Shown here piece by piece: positions 9,344 through 28,976 of a stretch of 64,000 nt of DNA; position 1 is the stretch's first letter, and every line of letters starts with the position of its first letter. The DNA comes from Porphyra umbilicalis (lineage: Eukaryota > Rhodophyta > Bangiophyceae > Bangiales > Bangiaceae), in NCBI GenBank assembly GCA_002049455.2, contig KV919062.1:1-64000 (forward strand). The letters run 5' to 3'. The position numbers and the translations under genes were made by a program. The notes under the pieces were generated by a model. That model saw only the letters and a program-made list of their open reading frames with translations. It searched no databases and had not been told where the DNA came from.

Positions 9344-9638
9344 CTAGTGTCTATTCTACTGGCCGCCTCATTTGAGCCGATTCCCCTCATTTGAGGCTGT
9401 TTTCGATGCCTCTCTGTGACCATGTTCCCGGCCTCGGCTGCTCTTTCTGAGAATATATCTGGACTCGGCGTTGTCCACTCACCTATGGGCCAACTCGGCG
9501 GCTGTGTACGATGAAAACTCGGAGGGGGTGCCCCAGACACCCCAAAAAGGGCGCCTTTCCAGGCCATATGAGAGGGAGCCTCATTTGAGCCTCATCTGAG
9601 CCTCATTTGAGCCTCGGGAGCAGTAGAATAGACACTAG
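9344..9638. mobile_element. MITE, 295 bp, 18-bp perfect inverted ends
   Basis: CTAGTGTCTATTCTACTG at 9344-9361 is matched exactly in inverted form at 9621-9638. Subterminal CCTCATTTGAG motifs recur in inverted orientation inside both ends (about 9367-9395 and 9571-9614). The flanking duplication is either TA or CTAG; both are palindromic, so the exact element edge is ambiguous. No coding capacity is seen. It is not a CACTA-type end, because CACTA reads inwards only on the wrong side. Confidence 0.7.
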
Positions 9639-9639
9639 G

Positions 9640-10640
9640 CCCTCATGAGCGTAACATCCCCAATCCGGTGCCTGACGAAGAACCAAGAGAGGTCGCATCT
9701 CTATGCATACTTAAATATCCAACTGTCGACTAATGCATGCTCGCATCATCAAACATATCCGCAAGTTTGGTAAAAACTCCACAGCGTTGTTGGACGAGCG
9801 GCATCGTGCAATCTCCACGTGAGACCTCACCGTGGGAGGCTGCCTTGCACCTCGCGCTCCCAGCTACCCACGCCCCGCGCACCGTCGTCACCCATGTCGT
9901 CTTCGCCCACCTGAGGCTACCGCCATCTTTCTTGCAACACGCTGCCGCTTTGCCGCCCTCCCCCCTACGCCACCATTCCGTCTCGTCCCACTGCGACTCC
10001 TCGCCCTTGCCTCGCCTTCCCACCCGCTCTGTGGACGCATCCCCTCCATGAGCACTTCTCGACGCCAAGCGTACGTTCCATGCCACACTCTCTGCCCGCG
10101 AATGCCCCTCCACCCCAACCCCCCCGTGTGCTCCTCGTGGTCCGTCTCCTTCCCACCTCGACATGCACTGAACAGTTGTTGCCGCACGACCGTGGATCCA
10201 CGGTTCTGCTGGCTGGGTGGCTGCATATGACGTGAGCTTGGTTTGTTTTTGACGTTGCTGACCATTGAAGGACTGACTTGCTGCTGTGCTCAGTGTGTTT
10301 GTTAGTTGTCCTTCTGGGCACGGTGTTTCCTTCACATGGAATTGTTGAGATGTCTGTGTCCACCGGGCTGTTGGTCGTCGCGCTGAGCGTAGAGATGGTA
10401 GCGCGCAAAAAAAAAATGGACGTGGGTCTCTCGACACACCCTCGCGACGTGAAGTGCCATGCTAGAATCTGGTTGGCCGTGCACAAACAGCTGACAGTAC
10501 GTGTGCACGCGCCATGAAATGCAAAGCACTTAATAACCAGTCACAAATACATTGGTTGCATTAACCAGAACCCTGCAGAATTGTCAGACACTTCGTCACT
10601 GTGTTCCTGTTTCATCCAAAAAGTGTCGGCTTGTCGAATC
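9640..10640. other. Stretch without a recognised gene
   Basis: Base composition is more balanced here. A 235-codon frame is open on the minus strand (9730-10437) and shorter ones on the plus strand. None contains a recognisable domain, signal peptide or repeat, and no element ends were found. Confidence 0.4.
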
Positions 10641-10868
10641 TTTTCGTAAATGATCCCGACGTTGTGCAAGTCCGGCAGTTGCTATCTCGCCGGCAGTCAA
10701 GTCCTCGCAACTCCAACCTCTGTGGCCTCACCGGTCGACACCACGGAGCCAGAAAAACACTGCGGAGTGCCCCGTGCTGTACAATCCGTGGCACAGAGAG
10801 GCAGGTTCGTCTTCGGCGGACGTCGAGCTTCCCACATCTCTCTCTTGGTACCTCTGACACGTGCTGAG

Positions 10869-11074
10869 ATGGCCGAGCAGAACCACTTTATGCAAGCTGC
10901 CTATGAGATTGCACACCAATTGAACAATGGGGGCGGTGGGGGTAGCGACGATGAGGGAAGTGAGGAAGAGGACTTTGGTCTCGGGGCGATTGACCCCGCG
11001 CGCATGCACCCCGACGGCATCCCGGTTGTAGGAGTGCTGGCGTTTGAGGTAGAGTGCTCCCAGAGAGCCGCTCG
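10869..11074 (+). CDS. N-terminal part of Crypton-like recombinase gene, cut off by hAT-1
   Basis: The frame opens at ATG 10869 (MAEQNHFMQAAYEIAHQLNN), followed by a Gly run and an acidic patch (SDDEGSEEEDFG), and is interrupted after base 11074 by the left end of hAT-1. If hAT-1 and one copy of its target duplication (GCCGCTCG) are ignored, base 11074 joins base 14143. The frame then continues without a stop into the recombinase start at 14177, adding about 80 residues to its N terminus. The frame is also open further upstream (from 10650), but the ATG at 10869 gives the most protein-like start. As a free-standing exon it has no recognised domain. Confidence 0.6.
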
Positions 11075-11270
11075 CAGGGTTGCAAGTTTACGGTGTACTC
11101 ATCCGCTGAAGGTTTCATTTCAGTATAATTATAAAAAGGCTGACAGTATAGTTATAGAAAGCGTTTGTGGAAGACTTATGCGTTCCACGTTCCAATATAT
11201 ATATAATTTTATTCCGACCGTTTCGCCTGGCGATCTACCTTGTCACCGGCAATGGCGCGAGCTTACGGTG

Positions 11271-11400
11271 GCGCTGCGGGCAATGCCAGGCAGCCGTTTC
11301 GCGGGGGGGGGGGGAGCTGCAGGCAATGCCAGGCAGCCGTTTCGCTGGGGGGGGCGGCGCTGCGGGCAATGCCAGGCAGCCATTTCGCGGGGGGCGGCGG
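11271..11400 (+). repeat. Three 43-bp subterminal repeats of hAT-1
   Basis: The core CAATGCCAGGCAGCCGTTTC recurs at 11281, 11324 and 11367 (the last with one change), a regular 43-bp spacing, about 200 bp inside the left end of hAT-1. Repeats at such positions in hAT elements are usually transposase-binding sites; that role is inferred here from position. Confidence 0.65.
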
Positions 11401-11738
11401 CACTGGCTGTGTCGCCAGAGCGCGTTGTGGCTGGAGCACTGGGGGGCACAGCTCCCACCGGGCGCCCGTGCCTGCCCCGCACGCCACACTGCCCACCGCC
11501 TGCCCGAGCCCCCCTCCCAGGTGCACAGTGCCCATGCGCGGCCGTCGCCCACCGCCTACCCCTCCCCTCCACATAAGAGCGGGGGGCACAACAGGGGCCC
11601 ACTCCGCCCCACGTCCAGGCCACTCATCCCGCCACACCCGGACCACTCCCACCCCCGACGCCCCCGCCCCCCCCCTCCCCCAGCTCCACGCCAACCCCCC
11701 CCCCGCGCCCCTCCCTCCCGCCCCCCCCCCCGCGTGCC

Positions 11739-13936
11739 ATGGGGGCTGCCAAGGACCCCGTCTGGGCCTACTTCACTGCCACCGACGACCCGCGGCGCTT
11801 TGTGTGCAAGTTTTGCACCAAAACCCTCTTTGGCAATCCGACGATGCTCAAGAAGCACGTGGTCTCCAAGGTGTGCACCCCGCCGGCCGACGTGTACCGC
11901 ATCCTCCTTGAGCGGCTCGTCGGCAACCAGCGCAAGGACACCCTGGGCTCCAGCCGTCGCCGGGAGCAGCTGGTCGCCTTGACGCGCGACCGGGTGCATG
12001 ACGCGTCTGCGGGGGGGCCGTCCATGCACACGGAGAGCACTGGACGGGCGGGCGGTAGCGGTGCTGGTGTTGGTGTCGGTGGTGGCCCTTTGTCGCCGTA
12101 TGTGCGGTCGCTGTCCAGCAGGGAGTGCGCCGACCTCGACGCCCGGTGTGCACGGTGGCTGTATCGAAGTGCGCTCCCCCTGCGCACGACTGAGGCTCCT
12201 GCCTTTCAGGCCTTCTGCAAGGGGCTCAACGCGGCCTACAAGCCGCCGTCGCGCTTCTCCTTGGCCGGTCCCCTACTCGACCGGGAGTTTGCAGCGCAGT
12301 CGGTGCTGGTGGACGCGTTTGTGGCGCGCAGTGTGGCCGCTGGGGACATCATCATTGGCGGTGACGGCTGGACGGACCGGCAGCGCAACAGCATCTGCAA
12401 CGTCATGCTCTTCACCCCCGAGCCGCTGTACGTGGAGACGGGCATGTGGCCCGAGCAGCGGCACACGGCCGACAACACGGCGGCGTTCTTCATGAAGCGC
12501 ATCGAGGCGCTGGGCAAGAGGAGCGTATGTGCTTTTGTGTCCGATACGGAGCCCAAGATGCGTGCCGTCTGGGGCCGCCTTCAGGAGGAGTACCCCTGGA
12601 TGCTGATGGTGCCGTGCGCGGCACACTGTTTTGACCTCCTCTTCTCTGACCTGTGCAAGTACGGGGCGCTGGCGGACGCGGTGGCTTTTTGCAACCACAT
12701 GACCCAGTACTGGAGGAACCACAACCTCCCCAAGATGGTGCTCGAGCGGTGCCAGCGCGCCGAGTATGACGGCAAGGTCATCCAGCTTCAGCGGCCCGCC
12801 ACGACGAGGTGGAAGTCGCAGCTGGTGGCTGCCTCGTCGTTGGCGGACACCCAAGACGCGATGGAGAAGGCGGTCGTGGACGCCGCGTTCAAGTCACAGT
12901 GCCTCCGGGAGGGCACGACCGAGCAGAGGGGGGCGGCGGAGGAGGCGGCCAAGGCGGTGCGGGACGAGGGGAAGTGGGGGGCTCTGACGTTGCTGGTCAA
13001 GTTGCTACGGCCGCTTGCCGCGGCGCTCGACAGCGGCCAGGCGAACGGTCGCGGGCTCGGGTCTGTGCGCCGTAGCTCCACGAGGTGGAGGCGCACTTTG
13101 GCAACTTTGACTACGACGTCCCCGGCCGGCGGGGCGACGGTGGCGACCGGTTGCGCTTCAAGCAGCACACGCTACGGTGCCTGCAGGAGCGGAAGCGGTA
13201 CACGTTGCGGCCCATCCACTCTTTGGCGTACCTGCTTGACCCCCGGTACACCGACGCGGCAGAGCAACCTGACGCGGCGGAGGCCACCGAGGCCTTTGCG
13301 CTTCTCAAGGAGCTGGCGGCGGCGCACGACGTCAAGGTAGCGCTGGCGCTTCACGGTGTCGACGACGAGAGCAGCCTGCCCGCGTCGTATAGCCGGACCA
13401 CACAAGAGCACATCATGCATGAGGACGCGCAGTTCAAGTCCAAGGCGGGGGGGCGGTTTGAGCTGGACGTTGTGTGGGAGGTGTCCACCGTGCGTGACCC
13501 GCTGTGATGGTGGGTGACGTGAGGCAAGCACGTGCCGAGCCTCCAGGCCGTGGCCGTGCGCATCATGAAGGTACCGGTCGGGTTCGCGGCCGGGGAGCGG
13601 TCGTTTTCCAACGCGTCGCATATCCAGAGCCCCGTGCGCACGCGGCTCTCCCACGCGCGGCTGCACAAGCTGCTCTACATCTACTACAACTCGAGGGCAT
13701 TGCCCCATGTGGACGTGACGGCCGGGCTGCCTGTGACAGCTAGCACCGCCGGGAGCTCTGGCGCAGGCGGGAGGACGGGCCCGTGTGGGGATGTGGATGA
13801 CGGGTCGGAGCTGGAGGGCGTCGCAGGGGAGCCGTCATTGGGTGAGGCGGGGCTCCTTTTTGCGGAACAGTTGGAGGACGAGGAAGGGCCGATGGAGGGG
13901 GACGTTGGTGGGACGCAGCAGTCGAGCTCATAGTGG
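11739..13936 (+). pseudogene. hAT-1 transposase, one frameshift and two stops
   Basis: From ATG 11739 the protein starts with a BED-type zinc finger (CKFCTKT... then H/C ligands, residues about 25-50). It continues into a DUF659-like catalytic region (DGWTDRQRNSICNVMLF; later SDTEPKMRAVWGRL and PCAAHCFDLL). The C-terminal hAT dimerisation motif (VPSLQAVAVRIMKVPVGFAA, then ERSFSNAS) lies at about 13535-13620. The frame is lost between about 13060 and 13085. The continuing frame then meets two TGA codons, at 13505-13507 and 13520-13522, beside the conserved Trp-Trp pair. The open frame ends at 13934-13936. The element therefore cannot make full-length transposase as read. An unrecognised intron around the stops is an alternative, but no good splice sites were seen. 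Confidence 0.85.
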
Positions 13937-14176
13937 GGGCGGGCACGCGGGCCGCCCAGGAGGCCGATTTTAATTACAGTACTTAAATCGGACTTTACAT
14001 GAGTAAATGGAAAGCAACTACCAACACGTGGTGCACACGTTGCATAAGTATAGTCTGCCGATCCATGGTTTGCATTAATACAGTGAAAATTTCATGTGTA
14101 TTAATCCGACTATAATTATCCCCTCTCAACCCTGGCCGCTCGACGTGCGTCTTCAAACAACGCTGCGTCCTTTGCG

Positions 14177-15691
14177 ATGACTGAGCATTCGTGGTCCGCC
14201 AATGATCGTACTGCGGCCCGCTTTCTTCGCTTCCTGGTACTCGCGTACGGACAGCACGGGAATGGCGCTGAGCCGCCGGAGGAGCAGGCCACTCGCCTTG
14301 CCTCTGTGCTGACGGAGGCTTTGCCCTTCCGCCTTCGCCGCTTTTTTTCTCTACTGCGGGAGGGGGGGCGTCCGTTCCTGGTCGGCGGCAAGGGCACCCC
14401 TCTGTCAATGGCTACGATTGCAAACATGGCCTCGTCACTCGGACACTTTTACGCGAAGGGTTCCCGCGATTTCGCTGGCCGGATGCCCTACGTGTCCGGC
14501 TGCCGCCAGCGCACGGAAATGTACAAGGCCATCCCCCTTCTGTCGCGGTCGGACGTTCAAGTCGCGGCGGGGGAGACCCACCAAGGCAACCCTCTGACTG
14601 ACGAGGCGGTCGCCGGCTGGGTGTCGGGGTCGGTCAAGCGGGCCACCCGGCTGGGAGAATCGGCAGCGCAGACGCCGCCGGTGACTCCCGACACGATGAA
14701 GTCGGCCTTTTTCCTGGCCACGGAGGGGCTAGATGACGGGGAAGCGGACCACCCGATAACGACATTGATGGTGGAGCGGCTGGTAGTTTTTGTCATCATG
14801 GTGTTCTCGTGGTGCACGATGCTGCGCCCCGACAACTTGCTGGGGCTGTGCTGTCGTGATGTGTCGCTGGCACCCAACGACGACGGCGGCAACTGGGCGT
14901 TTATGCAGCAGCACGGCCACCCGCGGTGGGTGCGGGTGCGGTACTCCCAGCTTAAGACAAACGTGGCGGGCACGGCGCCAACCCCGGCCTACTACTTTTG
15001 GTCTTCCATGGCTTCCGACGCCGAAATGCGGGCATCGGCCGAGTTCGACTCTGTCGGCGTTTGCGTCCGCTGCCCGTGGACCTGGTGCAATCTTCCTTTT
15101 TTCACCTACTTGTACATCCGGCTGCGGGAGGCGGCTCCCGGGTTCTCTATGAGCGCGCCAGGGCCTTTCTTTGTGACGCCCGTTGCTGGTGTTGGGGGCG
15201 GATGGGGAGCCATGAGCCACACGCCGGTCACCAAGGCGTGGTGGCAGACACATCTGGATGCCTTCGTGCTGGTGTTTGACGCGTCGCTCAGCGCCAGAGG
15301 GGTGGGGGGGCTCTACGGGTTTCGTCGTGGGGCGACGCAGTTTTGGCTCGCGTACTCAGGTGACGTGGAGATGGTCATGCGCATGGGCGTTTGGAAGGCC
15401 AACTCAACTCGCTTTTTGTTTTACGTGCTGAACTTTCGGTGCAGGGGGACCATCCGAGCTCGAGTGAAGGACTGCTTCCGCGTCGAACGCCAAGACCTGA
15501 TGGTGCGCATGGAGAGCTTGGTGGAGACTTTTATGGCTTGGTTTGAGGATCGTGTGGTGGCCCTTATCGACGAAGGCCATGGCAACTTCTTTGCTGGCGG
15601 GCTGGGGTTGGAGGTCATGGACAAGTTGATGACGTTAGTCGACACGCTCCTGCGAACTCATGCGGGGATGCTCGACGGAGAAGTGGCATGA
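14177..15691 (+). CDS. Crypton-like tyrosine recombinase (truncated at N terminus by hAT-1)
   Basis: A 504-residue open frame shows the tyrosine-recombinase catalytic pattern. Arg217 lies in SWCTMLRPDNLLGL (box I). Y380-G-F-R383 lies in LYGFRRGATQFWLAYSGD, the HxxR box with the first His replaced by Tyr. Trp406 is at the [H/W] position in RMGVWKANS. The nucleophile candidate is Tyr416 in RFLFYV. These enzymes cut and rejoin DNA through a covalent phosphotyrosine. There is no reverse transcriptase nearby, which argues for a Crypton-type element rather than DIRS. ATG 14177 is 43 bases downstream of the right end of hAT-1. The intact ancestor frame started upstream at about 10869, so this ORF lacks about 80 N-terminal residues. 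The remainder is uninterrupted. The substitution in the HxxR box may reduce activity. Element boundaries were not found. Confidence 0.75.
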   Translation: MTEHSWSANDRTAARFLRFLVLAYGQHGNGAEPPEEQATRLASVLTEALPFRLRRFFSLLREGGRPFLVGGKGTPLSMATIANMASSLGHFYAKGSRDFAGRMPYVSGCRQRTEMYKAIPLLSRSDVQVAAGETHQGNPLTDEAVAGWVSGSVKRATRLGESAAQTPPVTPDTMKSAFFLATEGLDDGEADHPITTLMVERLVVFVIMVFSWCTMLRPDNLLGLCCRDVSLAPNDDGGNWAFMQQHGHPRWVRVRYSQLKTNVAGTAPTPAYYFWSSMASDAEMRASAEFDSVGVCVRCPWTWCNLPFFTYLYIRLREAAPGFSMSAPGPFFVTPVAGVGGGWGAMSHTPVTKAWWQTHLDAFVLVFDASLSARGVGGLYGFRRGATQFWLAYSGDVEMVMRMGVWKANSTRFLFYVLNFRCRGTIRARVKDCFRVERQDLMVRMESLVETFMAWFEDRVVALIDEGHGNFFAGGLGLEVMDKLMTLVDTLLRTHAGMLDGEVA

Positions 15692-16640
15692 GCTGCATCT
15701 CGGAGACAGTACGTGAAGTGTGGACCAGGGCAGCTCTTATTCAAGGTACGCTCCTTTTGTCTGTCTCGAAACGCAGGGGTGGGGGCGGGGGAGGGTTGTC
15801 GGTGCCTTGTCCCTCAACTAGAATTTGGGGAAGCTGGCTGCTGTCGCACCCAAGTCGAGGGGAGGACCTGGGAGAGTTTCGGGGTCCAGGAAAGAGAATT
15901 GACAGCTGGAGGCATTGCCGCGGTGGCTCGGCCAGTAGCAGACAGCTGACCTTTCCTCGTCGCTTCGCGGCGCATTTCTGTCTCCATTCTTCCGTCTGCT
16001 GCTTGATCCTGCTTTCCGCTATCAGTGGGTCGCACATGTGCGTCGAGCGACAAGGAGGGTGGGGTCTCTCCGTAAGTTAGATGTTCCGCCTCGGCGTCCA
16101 AGGTCACGCCGCGGCGGAGCGCAACGCGGCGTGACCGAGTGAGCGGCGGCAGTAGGGACGTTTTGAGGAAGGTATAATCTGGCGCACACGGGGCGGTGGG
16201 GTGTGATACGGCTTGTCTTTGAGCGTTAGTTTTCTTTTGTGATAGGGTGGTCTACGGAGACCATGTCTTGGGATGGGCAACGTCGTACACGTACGTGTTA
16301 GCGGTGACGAGGGGCAGCAGCGGCGGCACCGCTACGACCCCGACGACGGCCACGGCGCGCGACGGCGGGGTGCCGGCGGGGCGGCCGTCTCCGCCGCACC
16401 TTCCCTCCCCCTGCGGTGCCTCTTCTCCCGCCTCCTCCGCCACGACGCAGTCGATGGTTTGCCCTTCCCATCCTCAGGTGGCGTCGCGTCGTCACCCCAT
16501 CCCCCCTCTGAGGTTGGCCGCGGCCACCGGCTACACGGCGGCTTCATGGCGGCGGCGTGGCGCGCCCGCCCCCGCGCCGTCGACGCGCGAGGCAGGCGGC
16601 GGGGCGTGCGACGCCGCGGTACAGCTGATTGTGCGGACTT
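15692..16640. other. Region downstream of recombinase; one 12-bp-stem hairpin at 16102-16136
   Basis: No gene is supported. GGTCACGCCGCG (16102-16113) and its exact inverse (16125-16136) form a 12-bp stem with an 11-base loop, about 410 bp after the recombinase stop. It could belong to the 3' end of the Crypton-like element, but nothing else marks the boundary. Confidence 0.35.
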
Positions 16641-16644
16641 GCAG

Positions 16645-16968
16645 ATGGCTGTCGAGGCAGCGTGCGAGGTCTATGCGCACGCGTCTCTGCCGCCGCCGGT
16701 CGCTGCGAGAAACGTCGATGGCCCACCGGGGTGGTTCCTTCGCCACCCGATGCCGCCACTGCCCCTAACGCAGCTGCCAGCGCCCGTCACCGCCCGCCGC
16801 GGCCGCATCGTGGCGGACCTCTGCCCGCCAATGATGCGAGACGGCGACCTCGACGCGTCCGCCTTTGTCGAGGATGAGCCAGACCCGTTGCCGCAGCACC
16901 ACCGACGCGGTCTGCATGCAGCTGCTGCCGGCGCCGAGATTCTCGGGCTCTCGCGTCAGTTGAGTGCG
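16645..16968 (+). CDS. Probable first exon of bZIP gene
   Basis: An open frame begins at ATG 16645 (MAVEAACEVYAHASL; the frame is also open further upstream). It ends with LGLSRQLSA directly at a strong splice donor, GCG|GTAAGG, at 16968/16969. Without splicing it would stop at 16999-17001. Joining to a CAGAG|GAC acceptor at 17158/17159 keeps the frame into the bZIP-encoding exon. The intervening 190 bases are mostly (GGC/GGT)n. The join is inferred; the acceptor is not a strong one. Confidence 0.35.
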
Positions 16969-18256
16969 GTAAGGGGATTGGAGGGGGAGGTGCGGGACTA
17001 GACCACCGAGTGGCGGCGGTGGTGGCGGTGGCGGTGGAGGTGGCGTTGGCGGTGGCGGCGGGGGCAGTGGCGGTGGCGGCGGTGGCGGCGGCGGCGACCG
17101 CGCGTGTACGGTCGGCAGCGGCTGCCCTGTGCCCCCATTGTCTGCCGTTTCGGCAGAGGACGCTTCTGGCCAAGGCCCGCCCGGTGGCGGCACGGGCAGT
17201 TGCCGCCGCACCCCTGCTTTAACGTCGGGCACCGACGGCACGGGTGGCAACAAGGCGACGACCAGTACCGGCGGTGGCGCTGGTGGTGGCAGTGCCGGCG
17301 GCGACGGCGGCGGCGGCGGCGGCGGTGGCGGCAGCGACAGCGCCGACCCGCTCGCCGCCGCCACGTCGGCTGCCGGCCAGCAGGCGCTCGTGGAGAAGCG
17401 GCGAAAAAACTGCGAATCGGCCAAACGCTTCCACCGCGTCCAAAAAGAGCGGAGCGCCGCCAAGGAGGCGGCGGTCGCCGGCGTCTCTGCCGACCTGACC
17501 GTCACGCGCGCGGCGCTCGCGGCTGAGCACCGAGGCGCGGTGGCGATGCTCGCCGACCTCCGACGCGCCGACGCGACCATCACCGCCCTCCTCCACGCGA
17601 AGTGCGTGTGTGGGGCGCTCGAGAGCGTCGCCCACGGGGGGGGGGGAGGGGGGGTCGCCGACGTTGGGCGCCCGGGACCACCGCCACCACCGCCGCCGTC
17701 GCTGCAATCGGCGGCGGCGTCGGTGGCAGCGGAGGCGGCGGCAGCGTCTGCGGGGAGCGGCGGTGACTGCTGGGCGGCGCCAGACCACACGCGCAAGCGC
17801 GTGCGGGATGCCATGGCCATCTCCTCCCTGCTCACGGGCGGCGATGAGGCGGCGCCGCCGCCCGCGGGGCGGCCATCGTCGTCGGCCGGTGGCCTCAAGG
17901 CCGAGCCGTCTGCCGCCTGCCGCCAGCCAGCCCACCCGCGGGCGGCGGTCGGCTTTGGGGGCCTCGCCGCCTCTGCCATTACTGCCGCTGAAGCGGCTGC
18001 CGCACGGAGCGTGGCGGACCGCGTCGGCCACCCCCTCACCGTCCGCACCGCGCTGCTGCTGCACGCGCCAGACGGGGTGGTGCTCGCCGCGAGATCCGGA
18101 GGCGGCGGCGGCGGTGGGGCGCTAGAGAGTAACCAGACCCGCTGCCGCCACACCGCCGACGCGGTTTGCGTGCGGCTGCTGCGCGCGCCGAGATGCTCTG
18201 GCTCTTGCGTCGGGCGAGTGCGGCAAGGGGATTGGAGGGGGAGGTGGGGGACTAGA
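16903..18256 (+). repeat. About 100-bp repeat pair, 16903-17005 and 18150-18256
   Basis: The block from CCGACGCGGT to GGGGGAGGTG(C/G)GGGACTAGA occurs twice in direct orientation, about 88% identical, 1.25 kb apart. The upstream copy contains the splice donor GCGGTAAGG; in the downstream copy the same place reads GCGGCAAGG and cannot be a normal donor. This looks like a local duplication of the exon-1 end into the 3' part of the gene. Confidence 0.55.
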
Positions 18257-18508
18257 ATTGTCACGGGCGGCAAGGCCACTACCCCCCGGACAGGCTGCGG
18301 CGCCGCCACAGTCATAGAAGCAACCAGTGGGCTCCCGAGCCGACGTCTGCGGCCGCTGCGCCGTCGCAGCCGGCCAAAGAGCGCACCCATATGCAACCAC
18401 CGTCGAGACGGGCGCCTGCGGCGGCCGCGTGGCCTCCCGCGGCAGCACGGGATGAAGCGTCGCGTGAGACAAATCCGCGCTTCACCGCGCGCGAAGCGCC
18501 GCCTCTGA
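17159..18508 (+). CDS. bZIP transcription factor-like protein, main exon
   Basis: After a Gly-rich stretch the frame encodes a basic region at about 17391-17470 with EKRRKNCESAKRFHRVQKER, matching the bZIP pattern N-x2-SA-x-R-x2-R. A heptad register follows: taking the Leu in SADLTVTR as position 1, positions 1, 8, 15, 22 and 29 are Leu, Leu, Ala, Leu and Ile, a short zipper with one weak position. The remainder is Ala/Gly/Pro-rich with a KRVRD motif and low complexity. bZIP proteins bind DNA as dimers in the nucleus. The start is uncertain: no ATG lies between the presumed acceptor and the basic region, so an upstream exon is required. The C-terminal part beyond about 18130 is a repeat-derived segment and may not be coding. 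Confidence 0.5.
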   Translation, partial: DASGQGPPGGGTGSCRRTPALTSGTDGTGGNKATTSTGGGAGGGSAGGDGGGGGGGGGSDSADPLAAATSAAGQQALVEKRRKNCESAKRFHRVQKERSAAKEAAVAGVSADLTVTRAALAAEHRGAVAMLADLRRADATITALLHAKCVCGALESVAHGGGGGGVADVGRPGPPPPPPPSLQSAAASVAAEAAAASAGSGGDCWAAPDHTRKRVRDAMAISSLLTGGDEAAPPPAGRPSSSAGGLKAEPSAACRQPAHPRAAVGFGGLAASAITAAEAAAARSVADRVGHPLTVRTALLLHAPDGVVLAARSGGGGGGGALESNQTRCRHTADAVCVRLLRAPRCSGSCVGRVRQGDWRGRWGTRIVTGGKATTPRTGCGAATVIEATSGLPSRRLRPLRRRSRPKSAPICNHRRDGRLRRPRGLPRQHGMKRRVRQIRASPRAKRRL

Positions 18509-19558
18509 CATCGGTGCTGCCGACAGTAAGCACTACGCCCGTAGCGGCCTCGGCTGCGCCTCTGCACGCCGACAACGACATTGGCAGGCCCCCTTGGGAT
18601 GGGTGGGCCAATCCGTGTGCGTCGACTGGCAGTGGCAACACTGTCGGCGGCGGTCGCCACTGCGGCAGCAACACGAGCCGGACCAGACAAACGCGCGGCG
18701 CGTGCGGTACGGGCGGGACGGCCAGTCCGGCTTGTGGAGGTACCCGCCGGGTGCCGAGGTAGTTGCCGCTGCCGTTGACATGGTCCCGCACGGTATTGTC
18801 GCAGTCGCAGCCCGCGGCAGGGTGGACCCGGTCAACCGTAGGGCTGTCACCTTCGGCGCCAGCACGGTCGCCGCCCGCGTCCGGGACGTCTCCATCCCCG
18901 ACTGGCCCGTCCGCCTCGGCGCCGGGACGGTCTGCATCCACCTCATACTTATACACGCTATATTTCTGTTTTGTCTAGGCATCGGCCGTACGAGCGACTG
19001 AAGGGCTGCCGGAGTCCCGGCCGACGCCACAGGGACCAACTGGCCGCCGCTTTCCAACGGCTCCATCTGCAATAAAGCCCGCACAATCCACGCCAATGAC
19101 CGCAACACGGGCAGAGCAAAAGCCTTTTTTTGGTGCTACGGCCGAGGAGAAATCCGGCAGCCCGGCCACGCTGTATGCACTGGCGTCGGCATGCCGTACC
19201 CCGCCGTTTGCCTCGACACCAGCTGCAAGAAGGAGCTGACAATGTCATGCCCGCTCCCACGCCACTGCGAGACCGTCTGCCTTTAAAATCAGAGTCCGTT
19301 CGTGAAAGCTGACATCGTCACCTCTTGCCCCTGCCTGCTCATTACGTGGGTGCCTTCGAAAAAGTGAGTGTGCTTTATCAGTTTTCGAAAGCATGGCGCA
19401 CTGCAAAACCGAGAGGCTTGCTTGACATCTCGCAGCTTCCTGACATCCTCTTTTCCACCAGCAGCAACCTCCAGCACGCCCCCCGGCCGTCATTGTATGG
19501 GTATTGTATGGGTAGACATCCCTTTGTGCCCCCCTCCCTGACGTCTATCCCCATTGTC
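18509..19558. other. No supported gene
   Basis: Short frames are open on both strands but without recognisable domains or element ends. The stretch separates the bZIP-like gene from the oxygenase-like gene and probably holds the promoter of the latter. Confidence 0.35.
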
Positions 19559-20895
19559 ATGGCTGCTTCTGGTTCGGAGCGCAACCGCCGTTGCAAGGAG
19601 AGGAAGCGTCATGGCCTGGGCCCCGCGACTCGCGGAGCTCCGCGCATCGTGACAAGCTCTCCCTCGCGAGCCACTGCCCTTGCTGCTGGTCGCGAGTACA
19701 AGGCGAGAAGTCGAGCCGTTGCTCGGGCGTCTGAATCTCCTGTTTTGCTTTCTGGTCATCCTGATGCGTCCGCCCAAGCCCCCTCCACGACGGTGCCCAC
19801 GACCTCGTCAACGACAACTGTTCAAGTCCAAGATGGCCCTGCGGACGGTCCTGAGGTACAGGCCGACGTCCTTCCCCTAGTTCATGCCGTCCAGGGTCTC
19901 GCCACCGAGATGCTCCGGGCCGCAGTGGACACCGTCCCCGCGGCAGGCAGCGCTCGTGTTCTCCCGGGCAGCCGGCCGCGGGGCTCGGCGCATGCTCTCA
20001 CCGCTCCTGCCCCACCCTCATTGTGTTCACTTGACGCCTACATGAGCGTTTTTGGGGAGAGTCGACAGGACCTAGAGACCAACATGGTGCGAACCGCTGA
20101 TGCAACTATGTGCGCGGAGCGGGGAGCCTCCGTAATGCGGGCTTCGGCGTGGACAGTCGGCGGCCCATTCGAACTTGCGCGGCATGCCCTGGGATTGGAG
20201 GGTCAGGGCTACTGGACGTGCAGCTTGAGCCTCCATTCGGCGGAGATGGCCAAAGTCGGCGCTGAGTTGAGATCTCTCCTGGACGCGGGGCTGGCAACTA
20301 CTATCTTCAACAGCACATCGGTGCGGACTATTGCCAACCAGGGACGGCGAGCGGACCGCGGTAGGGGCATGATGCCACTTACTCCCGAGTCGCTTGCTAC
20401 CATTGGCGGCGCCTCCGGGCTGTCAGCCGCGGTAAATGCGTTTGCCGGGCTGACCTGCTTCCTCTCCACCGCACTTGGGTGCCTCTTTGAGCACCGCAAG
20501 CCGGTCGTGCTGGTGTCGTCTCCTGGTGCAAAGCAGCAGCTCCCACACACGGACGACACTCCCCCCTTCATCATTTCGGACCCCCCCCCCTTCTCGGAGC
20601 CCTTACGGCTGTGCAGCCGGGCACACGTCTCCGGATTTGGCCCGGCTCCCATCGCGCTGTACTCGCCGGTAAGACGACCGGAGACGGACCAGGGGAGCTC
20701 CTAGACGTCAGCCCGCTTGATTGCCTTATTTTTCGTGGGGATATCGTGCACTGTGGGGTGCGTAACCCCTCCTGTCTTCCCCAATGCCGCTTACACATGT
20801 ATTTCGTAGCTGCCGGCGTCAAGGAGACGGTGGACCTGGACGGCACGAACCTCCTACCGCGGTGGTCAGGTCGCCGACATCACCAGCGGTGGTAA
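19559..20895 (+). pseudogene. 2-oxoglutarate/Fe(II) oxygenase-like gene with one frameshift
   Basis: From ATG 19559 (MAASGSERNRRCKERKRHGL) a basic, disordered N-terminal region leads into a globular part. The double-stranded beta-helix iron motif appears as His-Thr-Asp (PHTDD; codons at 20546 and 20552), a distal His in FRGDIVHCGV (codon 20749) and an Arg in CRLHMYF (codon 20788) suited to binding 2-oxoglutarate. The frame changes inside a run of ten C at 20581-20590. Upstream reads in one frame and the segment LTAVQPGTRLRIWPGSHRAV onward in another, ending at 20895. A homopolymer error or a real 1-base indel are equally possible. Enzymes of this fold hydroxylate or oxidise many substrates, including nucleic-acid bases; the substrate cannot be told from sequence. 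Confidence 0.5.
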
Positions 20896-22605
20896 GGTGG
20901 AAAAGCGCCTTTTCTATGAGCAAGATGCGTGTTTGGGCCCTTGAAGTGGGACGGGGGGGACGGGGGATGGACGTGGGCATGTTTTCTTTTTTTTCTTTCT
21001 GCACCACATGACGGTCGCCGCATTGCCCATCGAGCAGCTCCCAGTGAAACGCATCAGGACCCTTCCACCCGCCGCCTCTGCCACAGGCACCACCCGAACC
21101 GACCGGGGCAGTGAACGCAGCAGCCACCAGAGCCCCCACCCGCACCATCCGACTACGTCTTACATGCCCCCCAGAAATGGCCCGCACACCACAGCAACGG
21201 TGGCGACAACCCACCGCAACGAATAACAAGTGACTCCGAGGAGCTCCTAAAAGAGGCCTTGAAGATACTTGATGTCTTGCAGCAGTGGAGAATAGCCCCG
21301 CTGTTGTGTGGACTCTTGCAAGCACAACCGCAGTTACAGTGGGCAGCGACAGTGGCCGTGCCCGTCGGCAGGACTGAAGATTTCACAGCTATCTGGGCGG
21401 TAGCGGGCATCCGTAGTGACGCTATCTCCAATGGCAGTGGTGCCTCGGTGCGCTGGAAAAAGTGTAAAGACGGGGTGGCCTACACTGCCCCCCTTCGGCA
21501 GCAGCGGTGCCAAAGGCCGACGCGTTGCCCAACCCCGCTCGATGACTGCCAGCAACCGGCGCCTCGTGTCTCGCCGTCACCCCTACGCTGTCGCTTTGAC
21601 CTGATACGAGAACGCGGTCGTCGTCGGCGCTCTTATCGTGGCGGCGGCAATCTCTAATGAGATTGCCGCCACCCTTCCTCAGCCCCCGGCCAGGCCCGCG
21701 TGCGCCGGCATAGATGCCGCCAGAATCAACAGGAAAACCACCCCGATGCGCACGCGAGGCGCGAACGAGTGTAGGAGCACGCTCTGGCGGTTCGAGACAC
21801 GCCGCAAACGTGCAACGGCGTCTGACTTCGAGGCACGAGGGCGGGGGCCTCGTTGGTGAGCACTGCCGCATAGAGAGCTTCCGTGACCGCCCAAGATGCG
21901 AGGGTGAGAAAGAGGGTGCACGAGACAGCAGTTAGTACGAGCGAAGACGTGGCGCCTGTGGGGTTGGGGGCGGCCACCCCCGCCGCCCTGGGTGGAGCCT
22001 GCCGTCGCATCGGCGGCGCGGCGGCCACACCTCCGCCCGCCTCCTACCCGTAACCTCCACGTCCCCATTCAGGCGTCGCACGCCGGGTCGCGGCCTCCCT
22101 CTTGCGGAAAAAGCACCGGAGCGCCCCTGACAGTTAAGACAGGACGAACGTCCCGTGACCATTTCGGAGGGTCTGACGCATGGACCTGCCCGCCCTCTTT
22201 CCCATCCGCTCCCCCGCCCACGATAGCCCCCGATAGCGGCTCGGCATCTCCTCCCGAGGGCGACGGCCGAGACGCAGCGACAACGGCCGCCGACTCGCAG
22301 CTGCCACTCACCCCGACCGGCGGTGATAACGAACGGCCATGCCACCCCCCCTCGCGCAGACAGTAAGTGGTCGACAGAGGTGGTGGCGGCCGTGGCGGTC
22401 AGCCACAGATTGGCGAGGCGGAGGCCAGCCGGGGGAAAAAGAGAGCTGCAGTACCGCCCATCGACGACCCTGCAGCCCCCCGTCGTCAGCCGTCTACATC
22501 ACCTTCGCCGCCGCCGCGGCGGCCCCCCCCCGGCCGGCAGCACGCTCGCCGCGGCCCGTCTCCCACGGCGCGATGGCGGCACGACCACGCTAGATCCGCC
22601 TAAGG
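20896..22605. other. No supported gene; small hairpin near 21644-21670
   Basis: No domain-bearing frame was found. GGCGGCAATCTC / GAGATTGCCGCC at 21644-21655 and 21659-21670 form a tight 12-bp stem with a 3-base loop. From about 21950 the sequence becomes GC-rich and low-complexity. Confidence 0.35.
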
Positions 22606-23325
22606 TTGGTGCCACCTCGGCTCCAACCTCGACATGCGCTCCGACACCGCGGGCGCGCCGCTGGTACCGCAGCGACGAAGAGGGAATCGACGAAGGCGGT
22701 GGTCGAACGCCTCACCGCCGCCGCCGACACCGCTTCTGTCGCTGCCGCCGCCCCTGCCGTGGCACAGTGGAGCACCGACCGTATCCGCAGCGCTCCCAGG
22801 CCGCTGCTTGGACCGCCTCATTATGCAAGCAAGGGCCTGACTTTCATAATACAATATGATTGGACAGCCTGGAAAGAGATGAAATTTTCACATATGATAC
22901 TTTATAAAACGGGCAAAAGCTCCGCACAGCCGAATGTGCTGCACCCTCGCTGGTGCCGCGGGGTCGGCCGCCGACCAGTCCGGCCCCTACACGCTGCTCC
23001 CTGCCGCCGCCGCCTGAGCCACCGCATCGTTCACTCTCCCCTGAGACATGGTGCCTACGACAGGGACGCTTCCCCGCCACCGGATGATGTTTGCTCCGTG
23101 GCCACCGGCCAGTTCTTCCTCTACAGGGACCGCACCCTCTTCTCGGTCTGCGTGTACAACCCAGCGGCAAAGTCGTCGACGGCCGACGCCCAGCCGCCGG
23201 TGCCCCTGATTCATTTTGGAGCCAGGATGGGCGCGGACGGGTGCCTCTGGGAGAAGGTGGCGGTGGTGTTTGGGAAGCTTTTTGCGGCCAGCGAGTGTAC
23301 TCGTCTGCGTCTCAGAGCAACATGA
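22606..23325 (+). CDS. Unrecognised open frame, 239 codons
   Basis: The C-terminal half (GQFFLYRDRTLFSVCVYNPA and PLIHFGARMGADGCLWEKVA) looks more protein-like than the surrounding GC-driven frames, and the middle has balanced composition. The N-terminal part is low-complexity and the listed start is not firm. No family is recognised and there is no support from neighbouring structure. It could be an exon of a larger gene or chance. Confidence 0.2.
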   Translation: MVPPRLQPRHALRHRGRAAGTAATKRESTKAVVERLTAAADTASVAAAAPAVAQWSTDRIRSAPRPLLGPPHYASKGLTFIIQYDWTAWKEMKFSHMILYKTGKSSAQPNVLHPRWCRGVGRRPVRPLHAAPCRRRLSHRIVHSPLRHGAYDRDASPPPDDVCSVATGQFFLYRDRTLFSVCVYNPAAKSSTADAQPPVPLIHFGARMGADGCLWEKVAVVFGKLFAASECTRLRLRAT

Positions 23326-23668
23326 TCAATGAGATTGACGTATGTCTGGGGGGGGAGGGTGAGACAGAGGGGGGAAGATGGCGTCGTCTTCTACAGTATA
23401 TGCGGCACCTGATGGAATAGTGCTCGCGGGTAGCTTGAGCGCTAGGCGTGGCTGCTGGCGGGTTGTTGGGGGCGATTGGTGTATCCCGTCAATGAGTGGT
23501 GTGCTGACGCTCCGCGATTCTTGGTCGTAACCTTCATTACCTGCCCTCTATGCTGCGTTTTCCGATGCGGCTGTCGTCCTTCTTCCCTTTTCTTCCCTGT
23601 GGCCTCTCCTTCCTGCGTGCATGCCTGCTCTCCCTCCGCGTCTCTAGCACTTTCAGGATTTGAATGTG

Positions 23669-24262
23669 ATGATCGTTAAAGGGCTGCCTACCACAGAGCG
23701 CGGGTCTCCCAACACCCCCACTCGCCGCGCCGCCTCCGCAACGGCCGCCCCCGGCGCGGCGCTGATGCTCGCCGGTGGGGAGGGCCACGGCGAGGCGCCT
23801 GCGACGACCAAAGTTTTCAATGCGGTGCTGGTGTCGACGCCCACGACCGTCGCCACCCCCACCTTGACCACACGCGCGCCTGTGGCGTCGTTCGCGCCGG
23901 ATACGCCGGTGACAACCTCACAGAAGCCGGCCGTCAGTATCGGTACGTCGTGCGTTTCGGTTTCTGCCGCAGTGCTGACCACTGTAGGACTTATCTTAGT
24001 CACGTCGCTCGCTGCGGGTGCCGATGTGATGGCGGTGATGCCCAACGGAGGTGGCCGCAAAGCTACGAGTTCGGTCATTGCGCGTCACCAGGGGCGCACG
24101 TGGAGCATGCTCGCGTTGTGGGCGTGGCAACTTCGGCGAGCAGGTCGCAGGTTTCGCCGTCGGCGAGCCACCAGGTGCGCACCTTTGATGGCTTTACGCT
24201 GCTTGCGACTCTGTACTGGGCCGTCGAGCACGTTCGTACGGGCGGGGTGCTGCCGGCGTTAG
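23669..24262 (+). CDS. Unrecognised open frame with one hydrophobic segment
   Basis: Starting at ATG 23669, the frame has a Thr/Pro/Ala-rich first half and a plausible membrane segment (CVSVSAAVLTTVGLILVTSL), followed by an Arg-rich tail that probably reflects a missed exon end. The opposite strand is also open here (23653-24078), so coding status is doubtful. No family is recognised. Confidence 0.2.
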   Translation: MIVKGLPTTERGSPNTPTRRAASATAAPGAALMLAGGEGHGEAPATTKVFNAVLVSTPTTVATPTLTTRAPVASFAPDTPVTTSQKPAVSIGTSCVSVSAAVLTTVGLILVTSLAAGADVMAVMPNGGGRKATSSVIARHQGRTWSMLALWAWQLRRAGRRFRRRRATRCAPLMALRCLRLCTGPSSTFVRAGCCRR

Positions 24263-24785
24263 GGTCCGCCCCGACCCCTGCAACGGTGTCCAACTGCATC
24301 AGCCGTGGTCGCTGCCGTATTCGGCTGCTGTCCCCGGCGTGGCGCGTGCTCCTGCCGAGGCCGCCGCCGCCCGTGCCACGGCCAGACATGAGCAGAAGAG
24401 TGAATAGACGATGGTTTTTCTCCCCGGAGACGGTGCTCTGCCAGGTGGGACTGGTGCTCGTGCGGCAGAGGGGATGAAAAAAGAAAACGAGAGTACGCAA
24501 GAGTGCGGCGGCCTGCCCGCGATGCACAAGTCCTTACATTGGACAAAAGGAGGAGGTACTCATGTCCCGTTTTGATGCGACCCGATTTCACTGTCAAGAA
24601 ACTTGAAGTAAGCATTACGAATAACTCCGGCGCTGTGATTAGAAATGTGGTACCACGGTGTACAGGGCAACGGCCATCTACCCCTTGACGCGAGCGTCAC
24701 TGTACCACTTGCCGCAGCACGAGTCTTACGTCGTGGGCGAATCTGGGACACGGAGCTAGGGAAGGCATATGTCCAGCCACGTAGT

Positions 24786-24868
24786 GACATTTCCAGGACA
24801 TTTCCGTGTCGTTCCTCACGGCCTCATTTCCCGCATGTCCGGAAATGGAAATGTCCCGGACATGTCCC
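24786..24868. repeat. Left subterminal motifs of hAT-2 (GACATTTCC family)
   Basis: Within the first 110 bp of hAT-2A, GACATTTCC occurs at 24786 and GGACATTTCC at 24797, with the inverted GGAAATGTCC at 24847 and a palindromic CCGGACATG/TCC cluster next to it. The same array is present in hAT-2B. Position and multiplicity suggest transposase-binding sites (inference). Confidence 0.5.
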
Positions 24869-25209
24869 CACGTGTCATGCGCCCCCCTCGATCCTGTGCC
24901 TAAAACATGGTCCATAAAACACGACCAAGGGAAGGCTCTCTGGGCCTGTTGGCGATCAGCGCCGAAGTGCCCAGCAGGGGATCAGCCGCACAGTGTGTGC
25001 TCAGTGTTGAGACCTCTGCAGGCAGATGCAGGCACGCGCTGCCCGTCAAGGTCTCGACGGCGGCGGCCTTCACCGCGACTCGTGGTAGCTCTGCTTCCTG
25101 TCCCCACTCCGTCATACCATTGTACGCGTGTGCTCCTTGCTCCTCCCCCCTACCTCCACCCCGCCAGCACGACTCCCCTTTCCCCCAACCCCCGTTCGGA
25201 TTTCTCGGG

Positions 25210-27411
25210 ATGGCGCCCCCCCCCAATGTCAAGCTGGACCCTGACAAGGCGCGGAAGTACGTGACGACGGACGGCAACAGGATGAGTTGTGGGGCACCAG
25301 ATTGCCACTTCAGCAGGTACAAGAACATTACGCGGCTCGCTGTACACCTGTACACGTGCCCTAAGGCGCGTGCATGGAAGCCAGCCATCCTGTCTGATAT
25401 CGTCGTCGCGGGAGGGACCGGTGCCGCCGGTGGGGGGCCACCAGCCGTACAACAAGCAACCCCCCAAGAGTGCCTCAACTTTGCTATATCAATGTTCCGT
25501 TCGTGCATGCCGTTCGACCAGTTTGACACCCCCCATTGGCGAAAGTCACTGGCGGGCATTTCGGGCGGGCGGTTTGCGGGGCCTGGGCATCGTCGGCGAG
25601 TTGGCGGGGCGCTTTTGCTGCAATCTGTGGCGGTCGTAGATGCAGCTGTGGGTGCTATCTTGGGCGGCGCGTCCACCGTGAGCTGCTCCATCGACGGGTT
25701 GGTGGACGCGACGGGAAAAGTCGTGTACAACGTAGTTTTCTACCTCCCCGAACCCTACTTTGTGGCGTCTTTTCGCCTAGGAGCTGAGGCGGCGACCGCA
25801 GAGAACCTACGCTCTCACGTGCTGGCGGCGTTGGCCACCCCTCTCGCCGCGCGCGTGTCGCGGTTTGACTTGTTTCCGGGCGCGGCGCGCCCCAGCCGCG
25901 ACGTGTACCTGGCAAGCCGCCAGCTGCTGGCCTTTTGCTCGGACAACCCGACGGTTATGCAGTCACTGCGGCGGTTGGTAGTTGACAGCGACATGGCGCT
26001 GTTTGCGTACGGGTGCGCGGCGCACGCCGCCAACCTCGTGGGTAAGGACTTAGCGGCGATTGAGCCGTTTCGCGCCGCCCGCATCAACGCGGTAATCATC
26101 ATCGTCTTCTTCACGCGGAGCACGCGTGCAATGGCCATGCTGTCGGCCAACGTGCAGCAGCTGCGGACGGCGGGCGAGCGCGTGCCGTACCTGCAGACGT
26201 ACAGCAGGACGCGCTGGGTCGGAGAGACGACACCGATTGCGTCTGTGGTAGGCAGCATTGGCGCCTTGCGGAGAACGCTGTCGGATAACATTCACATCCG
26301 ACCGAGGGTCGCTATCCCTGCAGCCGTGACGGCGGCAGTGAACGAACCGGGCCCGCTCGCGGAGATGGGGCGGGCCCTTCCATTTTTGAAGATGCTATCC
26401 AAGTGCGTTGCTACTATTGAGGCGGACAGTGCCCCTCTGTCAACTGTTGCCGGTGTGTTTTGTGCTTTGCGCTTGTGCCTTTCCTCCTGCTTTTCTGACC
26501 TGCCAGTGGCAACTCGAACTGCCATACAGGCGTCGATTGCCGCTCGGTACAGTTTGATTCACGACCCGATGCTGGCGCTGGCTTTTTATTTGGATCCTTT
26601 TTGGGTGGGGGTGCGCATGCGGGGTGCTGCTTTGGAATGGAGTGGCAAGACGTTTATTTTTTTGCGGGAGGCGGGTTTGGATTGCTGGGCAGGAGACGAT
26701 GTCGAATATCGGGCCCGGCTGTCGGCTGACCTCGCCTCCTTTTTGGCGCACGTTGAGTCCCTACCATTCGGGTCTGATGGGGTGGGGGGGCATCCATGCC
26801 ACTGGTGGCGCCTGCACGGCGAGGCCTTCTCCACCCTGCGACCGCTCGCCATGCGCATCCTGCTGTTGCCTCCGTCGGCGGCGGGCGGGGAGCGGTCGTT
26901 TAAGGTCTTTAACCGGGCTTGAACGCGGCTGCGCAACCGCCTGTCGCCCACCAAGGCGGACATGCAGACCCGCATTGCGTTCAACTCGGCGCAGATGGAC
27001 CGCGCGGACGTTGTGTGCGCGTACCGGCGCACTCACCTGGAGCTTGACTTGTTGGTTAAGCTGGGGCTGACGCCTGTTGGTGCTGCCGCGGGCGAGGCGG
27101 CCGCTGCCGGCGGCGTGGCCGCCGCTGCGGGGGCCCTGGCGGGGGAGGCTGAGGTGGACGGCGGAGGTGCGGCGGCGGGGGACGGCGGGGCAGTCGTGGA
27201 GGGGGGGGGCCATGGTGAGAATGAGGGGATTGCCTTGGGGATGCAGGCGGACGCGGAAACCCCGGCTGAGGAGGAAGAGCCGCCTGTTGTTGAAGGGGAT
27301 GGAGCGATCGAGAATCTGGGCACAGAGGAGTTTGACACCGTTGTGCACAATGTGCTCGAGGGCTTGGAGAACGAGGGCGGGGTAGTTGGCGGGGTGGTGG
27401 GGGGGGCCTAG
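25210..27411 (+). pseudogene. hAT-2A transposase with single premature stop
   Basis: From ATG 25210 (MAPPPNVKLDPDKARKYVTT) the protein has a zinc finger (CGAPDC ... H ... C, residues about 23-50). A DUF659-like region follows (VSCSIDGLVDATGKVVYNVV; FAYGCAAHAANLVGKDL). The C-terminal hAT dimerisation motif (HWWRLHGEAFSTLRPLAMRI, then GGERSFKVFNRA) comes next, and then an Ala/Gly/Glu-rich acidic tail. The only visible lesion is TGA at 26920-26922, where hAT-2B has TTA (Leu). The stop lies within the dimerisation domain and removes about 163 residues. After it the same frame is open to TAG at 27409-27411. The frame upstream of the ATG is also open but shows no conservation. Confidence 0.9.
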
Positions 27412-28570
27412 CGTCGTCGGTGTAGCATTGCATCTGGCTTGACTGCTACATGCCTTTTCTTTTTTTTTTGATAATCTTGTTCCTTCTCCCAGGAACGAGC
27501 CACACCACACACCGAGCAGTCGAGCGGCGGCTGGGCCTCGCGCCCGCACCCGCCTCCCCCCCCCCCCCGTCCTGCACCCACCTCCCCACATAGGCTCCCT
27601 CGTCGTTCATCATCCAGTTCGTCGCGTCCTGCCCCGGCAGCCGTGCATGTGGTGTAGTATTCTTCCGCTTGCCTGATGGAGAAGTCGTCGCCGAGTTGTG
27701 GTGCCCGCTTGCATTTCCCTGGTGGCGGACCGATTGCAGCCAAGGAAAAAAACCGACACGTAGTGCCTCTGTTGTCGTAAAAGAGGGACGAAAGAAAGAA
27801 GGAACAACAAAGAGTGTCACACACATGTGGGAGAGGAAGAAAGAGGAGATTGCAGCCCATCGAAAACAACGCGAGTTGACAGGATGACAGTGCACCGAAC
27901 GAAGCCGCAGACACTAATCTCAATTAGCACAACAAGAGCGGGCGGGGCGAGTAAGGGGGGGGGGAGGGGTGGTGCAAGCCACTCACACACACGCACAAAG
28001 CAGCATAGGCAGATACGCAAGACAAAAGAGCACAAAGACGGCAAGAAGAGGACGCGATGAAGGACCCGGCACCTGGAACAGAAAAGCACCGAAAGAAAAC
28101 CAGAGCACCCGGTGCGACGACCACATGAGAGAGAAGGGCATGAACAAAACACAAACAAGACGAGAAGTGCTGGGGGATGGCAGCATAAGGGAGGCGGGGA
28201 GGGGAGAGGACAGGTGCGTCGACGGTGGAACACAGGCATGTGGCAGCCACAAAAAGGTGCAGAGCGAGACGAAGAGCAGAAGAGAATCAGACCAACATAT
28301 TGTCATATAGCCTAAACGATGGTAGTGTGGCTGCAGAGCCGGCGCAGAATATCGAGAAGAATGGAAGAGAGACGCTCTACCTCAAGGTCCCCTCGTGGTG
28401 GCGGTAACGCACGCGGACACATCACCACGGTGGCGGGCCGGGGGGGGAGGGATGGGGTAGGCGGCGGAGTCACCAATGGCAGCGGGCACGACAATGGCGA
28501 CGGTCCCGGTTTGTGGCGCGGTGGGGGCGCGACGACAGGTGCCATAGCGTGGGTCGGGTGACCCGACCGA

Positions 28571-28615
28571 GGTCACGGTCGGGTTACCCGACGGTCGGGT
28601 TACCCGACCGTGACC
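28571..28615. repeat. Right subterminal palindrome of hAT-2A (GTCGGGTTACCCGAC)
   Basis: Two tandem near-palindromes GTCGGGTTACCCGAC, themselves framed by GGTCAC and GTGACC, make a 45-bp inverted repeat with a single central mismatch. A third related unit precedes it at about 28556-28568. The same structure is in hAT-2B near 46582-46626. It lies about 170 bp inside the right end and differs in sequence from the left array. Confidence 0.6.
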
Positions 28616-28894
28616 TGACTCCACATCACAGGGCGCGCGCTCTCGTCGAGGCCCGACGCTCAGAACGCGTCGAACTGCTGTCCTGTTGCCGACGGAAAGG
28701 TAGCCCCAGTTTTCCGTGGAGTCCGACATTTGACACGACACGACAGGCTGGACAGTGTCGGCTCGAAATCATGCCTTCTCTACACGGAGCATAGCACACC
28801 AGTATAACGGTCTTCTCCTGACACAACTGTTCAGGCCACATTAATTCTCAACCGAAGCAGACGCAACGTTTGAAACCGGGAGGATTGATAACCA

Positions 28895-28976
28895 TTTATC
28901 GCATTCTCCTTGATTCGAACCCACTCGAATCCACGACTACTGAGCCAGGAATTTCCCCACTAGGCCACGAGGACCT
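28895..28976 (-). other. tRNA-like segment with A-box and B-box shapes (SINE or decayed tRNA)
   Basis: Read on the minus strand, GTGGCCTAGTGGGG resembles a pol III A box and GGGTTCGAATC a B box, about 40 bases apart as in tRNAs. The stems do not pair properly: the T-arm and acceptor stem mismatch. A functional tRNA is therefore unlikely. A tRNA-derived SINE head or a decayed tRNA would both explain it. A second GGGTTCGAATCC occurs on the plus strand at about 29035. Confidence 0.3.

Follow-up and report, generated by a model that had tools for sequence, protein, structure and literature searches.

Cryptons, as characterised in the survey by Kojima and Jurka (2011, PMC3212892), encode a tyrosine recombinase (YR), lack terminal inverted repeats (TIRs) and exhibit terminal direct repeats of 4 to 6 bp. 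A second gene, coding for a C48 peptidase, is found in some CryptonS elements, and the species table of the same survey comprises fungi, animals, oomycetes and a diatom. A tyrosine recombinase is also encoded, according to that source, by the DIRS, Ngaro and VIPER retrotransposons. The Starships of the Pezizomycotina, according to PMC12134995, possess a DUF3435 captain at the 5' end and direct repeats, and range in size from 15 to about 700 kb.

Here we describe a predicted tyrosine-recombinase element in a 64,000-bp stretch of DNA from the red alga Porphyra umbilicalis (contig KV919062.1, positions 1 to 64,000; hereafter the window), which works like a Crypton and is laid out like a Starship; this is a likeness only, short of demonstrated membership in either group. 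In common with Cryptons as outlined in PMC3212892, it possesses a predicted recombinase of its own, no TIRs and short terminal direct repeats (the 4-bp CACA at both ends, in the window as well as in the related units C80, C140 and C11), and it has a second gene (ORF2), as some CryptonS elements do. It differs from them in its length of about 22 kb (nested elements included), in the dioxygenase-like rather than C48 peptidase character of the second gene, in the replacement of the HxxR motif by YxxR, in the lack of a match to a Crypton-derived Pfam model, and in its host, since red algae do not appear in the species table of PMC3212892. The term Crypton-like, used in the initial annotation of this DNA, is justified for the mode of action (a recombinase identified by profile comparison, 4-bp direct repeats) rather than for a placement among the Cryptons. 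With Starships, as described in PMC12134995, the element shares the recombinase gene at the 5' end, the direct repeats, the further genes behind, a size within their range (22,277 bp with the nested elements, core about 15 kb) and insertion into another repeat. On the other hand, it is not fungal, and the only cargo seen is one recurrent gene and the nested transposons; DUF3435 (PF11917) gave no match at E-values up to 10, a range in which most matches above about 0.1 are lost to the filters of HMMER, either to the window recombinase or to any of the 9 family members. The DIRS, Ngaro and VIPER elements, as presented in PMC3212892, have a tyrosine recombinase too, whereas no reverse transcriptase was found here in the 8 frames scanned wholly or partly, out of the 14 frames of at least 250 codons inside the element. 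A genome search with PF00078 was saturated by other retroelements (best 150 of 847 candidates) and has no bearing on the recombinase loci. Among the top results of a literature search, which had subscription papers and Repbase outside its scope, there was no report of a red alga with Cryptons or with large recombinase elements, nor of dioxygenases in such elements.

The features of the locus are collected in Table 1; other loci are cited by handles such as C85. The window has a G+C content of 65.3%, and contains also a Copia-type retrotransposon (56787–60863, its domains for gag, integrase and reverse transcriptase spread over two frames), another broken hAT-like transposase (43102–45422, with a weak DUF659 match and a dimerisation domain at E 2.2e-6) and a perfect 18-bp inverted repeat (9344–9638) with arms 259 bp apart and short direct repeats inside. 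Elsewhere in the assembly, C665 exhibits eight near-full-length and two partial phycobiliprotein matches, with one more on C128, i.e. a red algal plastid gene set.

Table 1. Coordinates of the predicted recombinase element, its gene, the nested transposons and the flanking host repeat in the window.
Feature	Position	Strand	Remarks
Host repeat, left half (insertion target)	10290..10434	.	
Whole tyrosine-recombinase element	10435..32711	+	22,277 bp, nested elements counted in
Left CACA terminal direct repeat	10435..10438	.	
Recombinase gene, first 68 2/3 codons, 5' of hAT-1	10869..11074	+	Matched in 11/11 loci and in C37
hAT-1 left target-site duplication	11067..11074	+	GCCGCTCG
hAT-1 transposon	11075..14134	+	3,060 bp, TIR CAGGGTTG
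hAT-1 transposase fragment (zf-BED, DUF659)	11739..13340	+	Pfam
hAT-1 transposase fragment (hAT C-terminal dimerisation domain)	13532..13933	+	Pfam; different frame
hAT-1 right target-site duplication	14135..14142	+	GCCGCTCG
Recombinase gene, remainder	14143..15691	+	Internal ATG 14177 (Met81 of 584), 504 codons
Predicted catalytic positions of the recombinase	within 14143..15691		R (TMLRP), K (LKTN), Y..R (YGFRRG), W, Y (FLFYV)
Second gene (ORF2), dioxygenase-like	19559..20895	+	Frame disrupted within about 20560–20600
Probable second nested transposon, hAT-like	24545..28832	+	Approximate bounds; 672-codon frame 24904–26922
432-codon open frame	30925..32223	-	Without Pfam match
Subterminal repeats (three copies) close to the right end	32637..32690	+	Consensus ACGTGGASTTCAC, first with two mismatches
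Right CACA terminal direct repeat	32708..32711	.	
Host repeat, right half	32712..32827	.	

The boundaries of the element were determined from the host repeat that it interrupts. A query composed of the joined flanks listed 33 pieces, all but one of which match the left flank (the window itself and C85 included). In all 10 copies read, the joined flanks align across the junction in one piece (83–90% identity, 1–15 gap positions) and the repeat resumes at window position 32708; on the left side, 9 of the 10 match to 10438, and C19 only to 10430. The host repeat is therefore continuous across the joined flanks, which places an element of 22,277 bases, inserted at CACA, between them. When the left terminus (CACACCCTCGCG) was read directly against the reverse complement of the right one (TGTGATCACC), no TIRs emerged, apart from no more than a short inverted motif in subterminal position, and the start codon of the recombinase is situated 434 bp inside the left end. 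The subterminal ACGTGGASTTCAC repeats probably serve as binding sites of the recombinase. The window-type right end was identified at six other loci (C80, C140, C11, C23, C26 and C146), and all seven right ends, including that of the window, finish in TCACA; the pattern ACGTGGASTTCACN{6,10}ACGTGGASTTCAC has 12 occurrences genome-wide, at seven loci, while the backward control yielded 0. The copy at C146 (50727–50759) may belong to another full-length element. C80, C140 and C11 are 1-kb units, 97–98% alike, with different flanks and with CACA at both termini; each brings together the beginning of the recombinase gene, a similar left end and the window-type right end. They are non-autonomous derivatives.

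Could the 22.3-kb unit be a stack, i.e. a smaller recombinase element with unrelated insertions, whose outer edges split the host repeat by chance? Two transposons, hAT-1 and the probable second hAT-like element, are indeed nested inside, and C196 stops matching the window element at about 22204, no second full-length 22-kb copy having been read. However, the left end is common to C210 and C196, whose flanks differ, the right end recurs at the six loci listed above, both kinds of ends occur in the 1-kb units alongside the beginning of the recombinase gene, and the host repeat resumes at the same position in every copy read, all of which makes such a stack very unlikely. Position 22204 was considered also as the right end of the element itself and rejected, because the host repeat places the true end at 32708–32711.

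The relationship of the 504-aa protein encoded downstream of hAT-1 to known recombinases is remote. No recombinase match was found in Pfam, PHROGs or NCBIfam at E-values up to 10, none of the 9 C-terminal family members matched in Pfam as a recombinase, the sequence search of solved structures gave no relevant match, and no relatives were found among viral contigs; PDB profile matches to uracil-DNA glycosylase (E 1.6 or worse) were dismissed as spurious. When the ten-member family profile was compared with a profile of XerD, Cre, lambda Int and FimB, the alignment, which spans the catalytic domain, scored 25.7. Shuffling the columns 150 times gave 12.4 ± 2.0 (maximum 19.5), and reversing the profile gave 12.4; the real profile beat 150/150 shuffles, and the result is the same with the C68 row dropped. 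An earlier version of the profile, with the C68 row in the wrong frame, scored 24.9 against a maximum of 20.0 (0 of 200 shuffles as high). The figures of hhalign itself for the profile pair are low (probability 5.6%, E 0.0068). R, K, R, W and Y of the family fall in register with the catalytic positions of the XerD/Cre/Int/FimB profile; all 9 C-terminal family sequences share K, R and Y without exception, while the first His of HxxR is replaced by Tyr in 8 of them and by Cys in one. On the basis of this profile comparison, we take the protein to be a divergent tyrosine recombinase.

The gene of this recombinase is split by hAT-1 in codon 69. Joining position 11074 to 14143 yields a frame of 584 codons that opens at ATG 10869, ends at 15691 and is free of internal stops, which bears out the split ORF of about 584 codons proposed in the initial annotation, and the ATG at 14177, 43 bases past hAT-1 and followed by 504 codons, was likewise confirmed. 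Its description of the frame as preserved holds only if the insert is skipped: the insert, i.e. hAT-1 with one duplication, comprises 3,068 bp, which is not a multiple of three, so with hAT-1 in place the frame is lost, and translation from ATG 10869 straight into hAT-1 meets a stop at 11574 after 235 codons. The genome search with 10869–11074 identified four places, namely the window, C85, C210 and C196. At C210 (6697–7527) and C196 (68402–68725) the base that follows the equivalent of 11074 corresponds to the base at 14143, so the hAT site is empty and contiguous in both; such an empty-site copy is what the annotation had proposed to look for. On the protein level, among the loci compared, 13 span the hAT site, and 12 of them are uninterrupted (C210, C196, C4, C6, C163, C68, C349, C212, C80, C140, C11 and C37), the exception being C85. 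Since uninterrupted relatives exist, the order of insertions, the recombinase element first and hAT-1 later, can be read directly. The residues of 10869–11074 are matched at 40–93% identity in 11 loci (in C68 in two pieces), and in C37 from residue 8 on, so that all 12 uninterrupted loci share the upstream region whose conservation the annotation had proposed to check.

Among the 11 loci searched, C210 and C196 alone match the 73 residues farther upstream (10650–10868), hence ATG 10869 is the likely, sequence-predicted start of the gene. The codon of Met81 at 14177 encodes Leu in 4 of the 9 aligned loci, therefore Met81 is not the native start in the family. A native start at 14177, with 10869–11074 being unrelated sequence that is open by chance, would agree with the good open frame of 504 codons from there and with the six distant relatives, four of which are similar only from about residue 68–82 on and two from 115–120, in a comparison that for the former four covers only 28–43 residues upstream of the match. 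Nonetheless, the uninterrupted match of the upstream residues and of the junction in 12/13 loci, the Leu at position 81 and the contiguous empty sites in C210 and C196 leave this possibility with next to no credence; homologues that start at the position of 14177 without similarity to 10869–11074, which the annotation had named as the finding that would speak against its own reading of a split gene, were not seen in the loci compared. In the distant relatives (C55, C182, C496, C568, C3 and C64) the match is split near residue 325, with two frames in 5/6, which suggests a putative intron absent from the window subfamily.

Elements of the hAT superfamily are marked by 8-bp target duplications and short TIRs. 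hAT-1 exhibits both, along with the BED, DUF659 and dimerisation domains (E 4.8e-4 for zf-BED, just under its Pfam cut-off, 1.4e-16 for DUF659 and 1.2e-4 for Dimer_Tnp_hAT), and nothing about it is unusual for the superfamily; the transposase of the window copy is spread over several frames. At least 75 pieces matching hAT-1 are present in the 83.8-Mb assembly (40 of 106 candidates scored), where one copy can yield two pieces. Both ends were seen in 13 of the 18 copies checked for ends, and 9 of these 13, the window copy among them, possess exact 8-bp duplications; of the others, two match at 7/8 positions and C324 at 5/8, and C85 has no duplication. The nearest siblings are 99% alike. The exact duplications in the window and all coordinates given in the initial annotation hold on re-reading of the sequence. 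The nested hAT-1 is of an ordinary kind but unusually well documented, with the insertion, the empty sites and the duplications all within one genome.

An assembly artefact as the source of the split gene has to be considered, since the assembly has homopolymer errors and since C85 (near 131065–132834) joins the left flank of the window to another hAT copy, similar to that of C324, and then to the right flank of C324. C85 was considered also as a second, shared hAT insertion, and this was rejected in favour of a probable misjoin of C302 and C324. The comparison of the overlaps (window 1–1600 and about 7.4–11.07 kb; for C324, 1,066 bp) revealed that C85 differs from the window flank nearly exclusively by single-base indels. 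Its hAT sides with C324 at 17/17 scorable differences between C302 and C324, never with C302, but it also exhibits 41 differences of its own, most of which are gaps. Past the C85 join, C302 runs on for about 11 kb and C324 for about 15 kb before ending. As it is C85 itself that looks like the misjoin, and as the window has two matching duplications and flanks that belong to a single continuous gene, an artefact at the window locus is extremely improbable.

The dN/dS of the window copy equals 0.12–0.16 in comparison with C4, C6, C163, C68 and C80, i.e. the protein was under purifying selection before the insertion of hAT-1. For the close copies the ratio is high (0.61 against C210, 1.23 and 0.57 against two parts of C196). 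If C4 serves as the outgroup, the window branch has 10 changes and the C210 branch 48 (4 of them stops); with C6 in this role the counts are 6 and 38, respectively. The few changes on the window branch suggest a recently active source and do not demonstrate selection after the insertion. They would fit also a tamed hAT-1, whose 3' end drives a working 504-aa recombinase and keeps the element mobile, as would the fully open frame from Met81 and the several distant relatives without similarity to the lost region in the sequence compared; but a recent insertion, indicated by the 99% likeness of the nearest hAT siblings, explains the open frame equally well, and conservation in the subfamily extends over the lost region, which renders a tamed hAT-1 very unlikely.

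Behind the split recombinase gene, ORF2 runs in one frame from 19559 to 20701 and continues in another to 20895. At 5/10 loci (C302, C196, C4, C163 and C68) a relative of ORF2 follows the recombinase gene with no change of strand, where the ten represent the close recombinase subfamily without the short fragments C485, C80, C140, C11 and C37; C6, C349, C210, C226 and C212 are absent from the match list. Relatives exist also at 20 places with no recombinase of the window subfamily nearby. H-x-D and RGDxxHxG are invariant in 5/5 aligned relatives, of which only C163 is beside a recombinase, and such an arrangement (H-x-D ... RGDxxHxG) is the pattern of Fe(II)/2-oxoglutarate dioxygenases, with the HxD...H metal triad and an Arg behind. 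The profile matches are not significant (DhiD, presumably a member of this dioxygenase class, E 0.034; AndA, E 0.49), and Pfam gave no dioxygenase domain in ORF2; the motifs point to a tentative resemblance to the Fe(II)/2-oxoglutarate dioxygenases. The domain scores of the second hAT-like element are under the cut-offs of Pfam, and a search for its ends found none; the hAT genes inside the element belong to the nested transposons. With two nested elements inside, the core of the recombinase element amounts to roughly 15 kb. The minus-strand frame close to the right end was not found in the other loci compared.

Altogether, the window very probably contains a recombinase element that is inserted into a host repeat at CACA, received hAT-1 later in its recombinase gene, and is non-autonomous in this copy. 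The element first entered the host repeat, leaving the CACA now seen at 10435 and 32708. By analogy with Cryptons, it would exit as a circle via recombination between the two CACA copies and re-enter at another CACA. hAT-1 later entered codon 69, presumably by the cut-and-paste mechanism known from hAT biology, with the duplication of GCCGCTCG that is visible on both its sides. Translation of a transcript that begins at the 5' end of the element itself would now stop inside hAT-1, and the part from Met81 on would keep the catalytic part cut off from the upstream region, from which it follows that this copy is most likely non-autonomous. The recombinase of the window copy is most likely dead; a shortened 504-aa enzyme from Met81 is at most conceivable, given the distant relatives that are similar only from about residue 68–82 or later. 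A recombinase produced elsewhere might still mobilise the window element, as presumably happened with the C80, C140 and C11 derivatives.

What emerges is a red alga with a family of recombinase elements whose ends are mapped, in which short non-autonomous derivatives occur and a second gene recurs. Perhaps red algae possess their own lineage of large recombinase elements, built like Starships (the recombinase first, CACA ends, genes behind and short derivatives moved in trans) around an unrelated-looking recombinase and joined by a recurring dioxygenase-like partner, which may aid the element through modification of DNA or chromatin; we offer this idea tentatively and regard it as rather doubtful at present. 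The defined ends, i.e. the CACA termini and the ACGTGGASTTCAC repeats, make both the action of the recombinase and a non-fungal origin of large recombinase elements testable.
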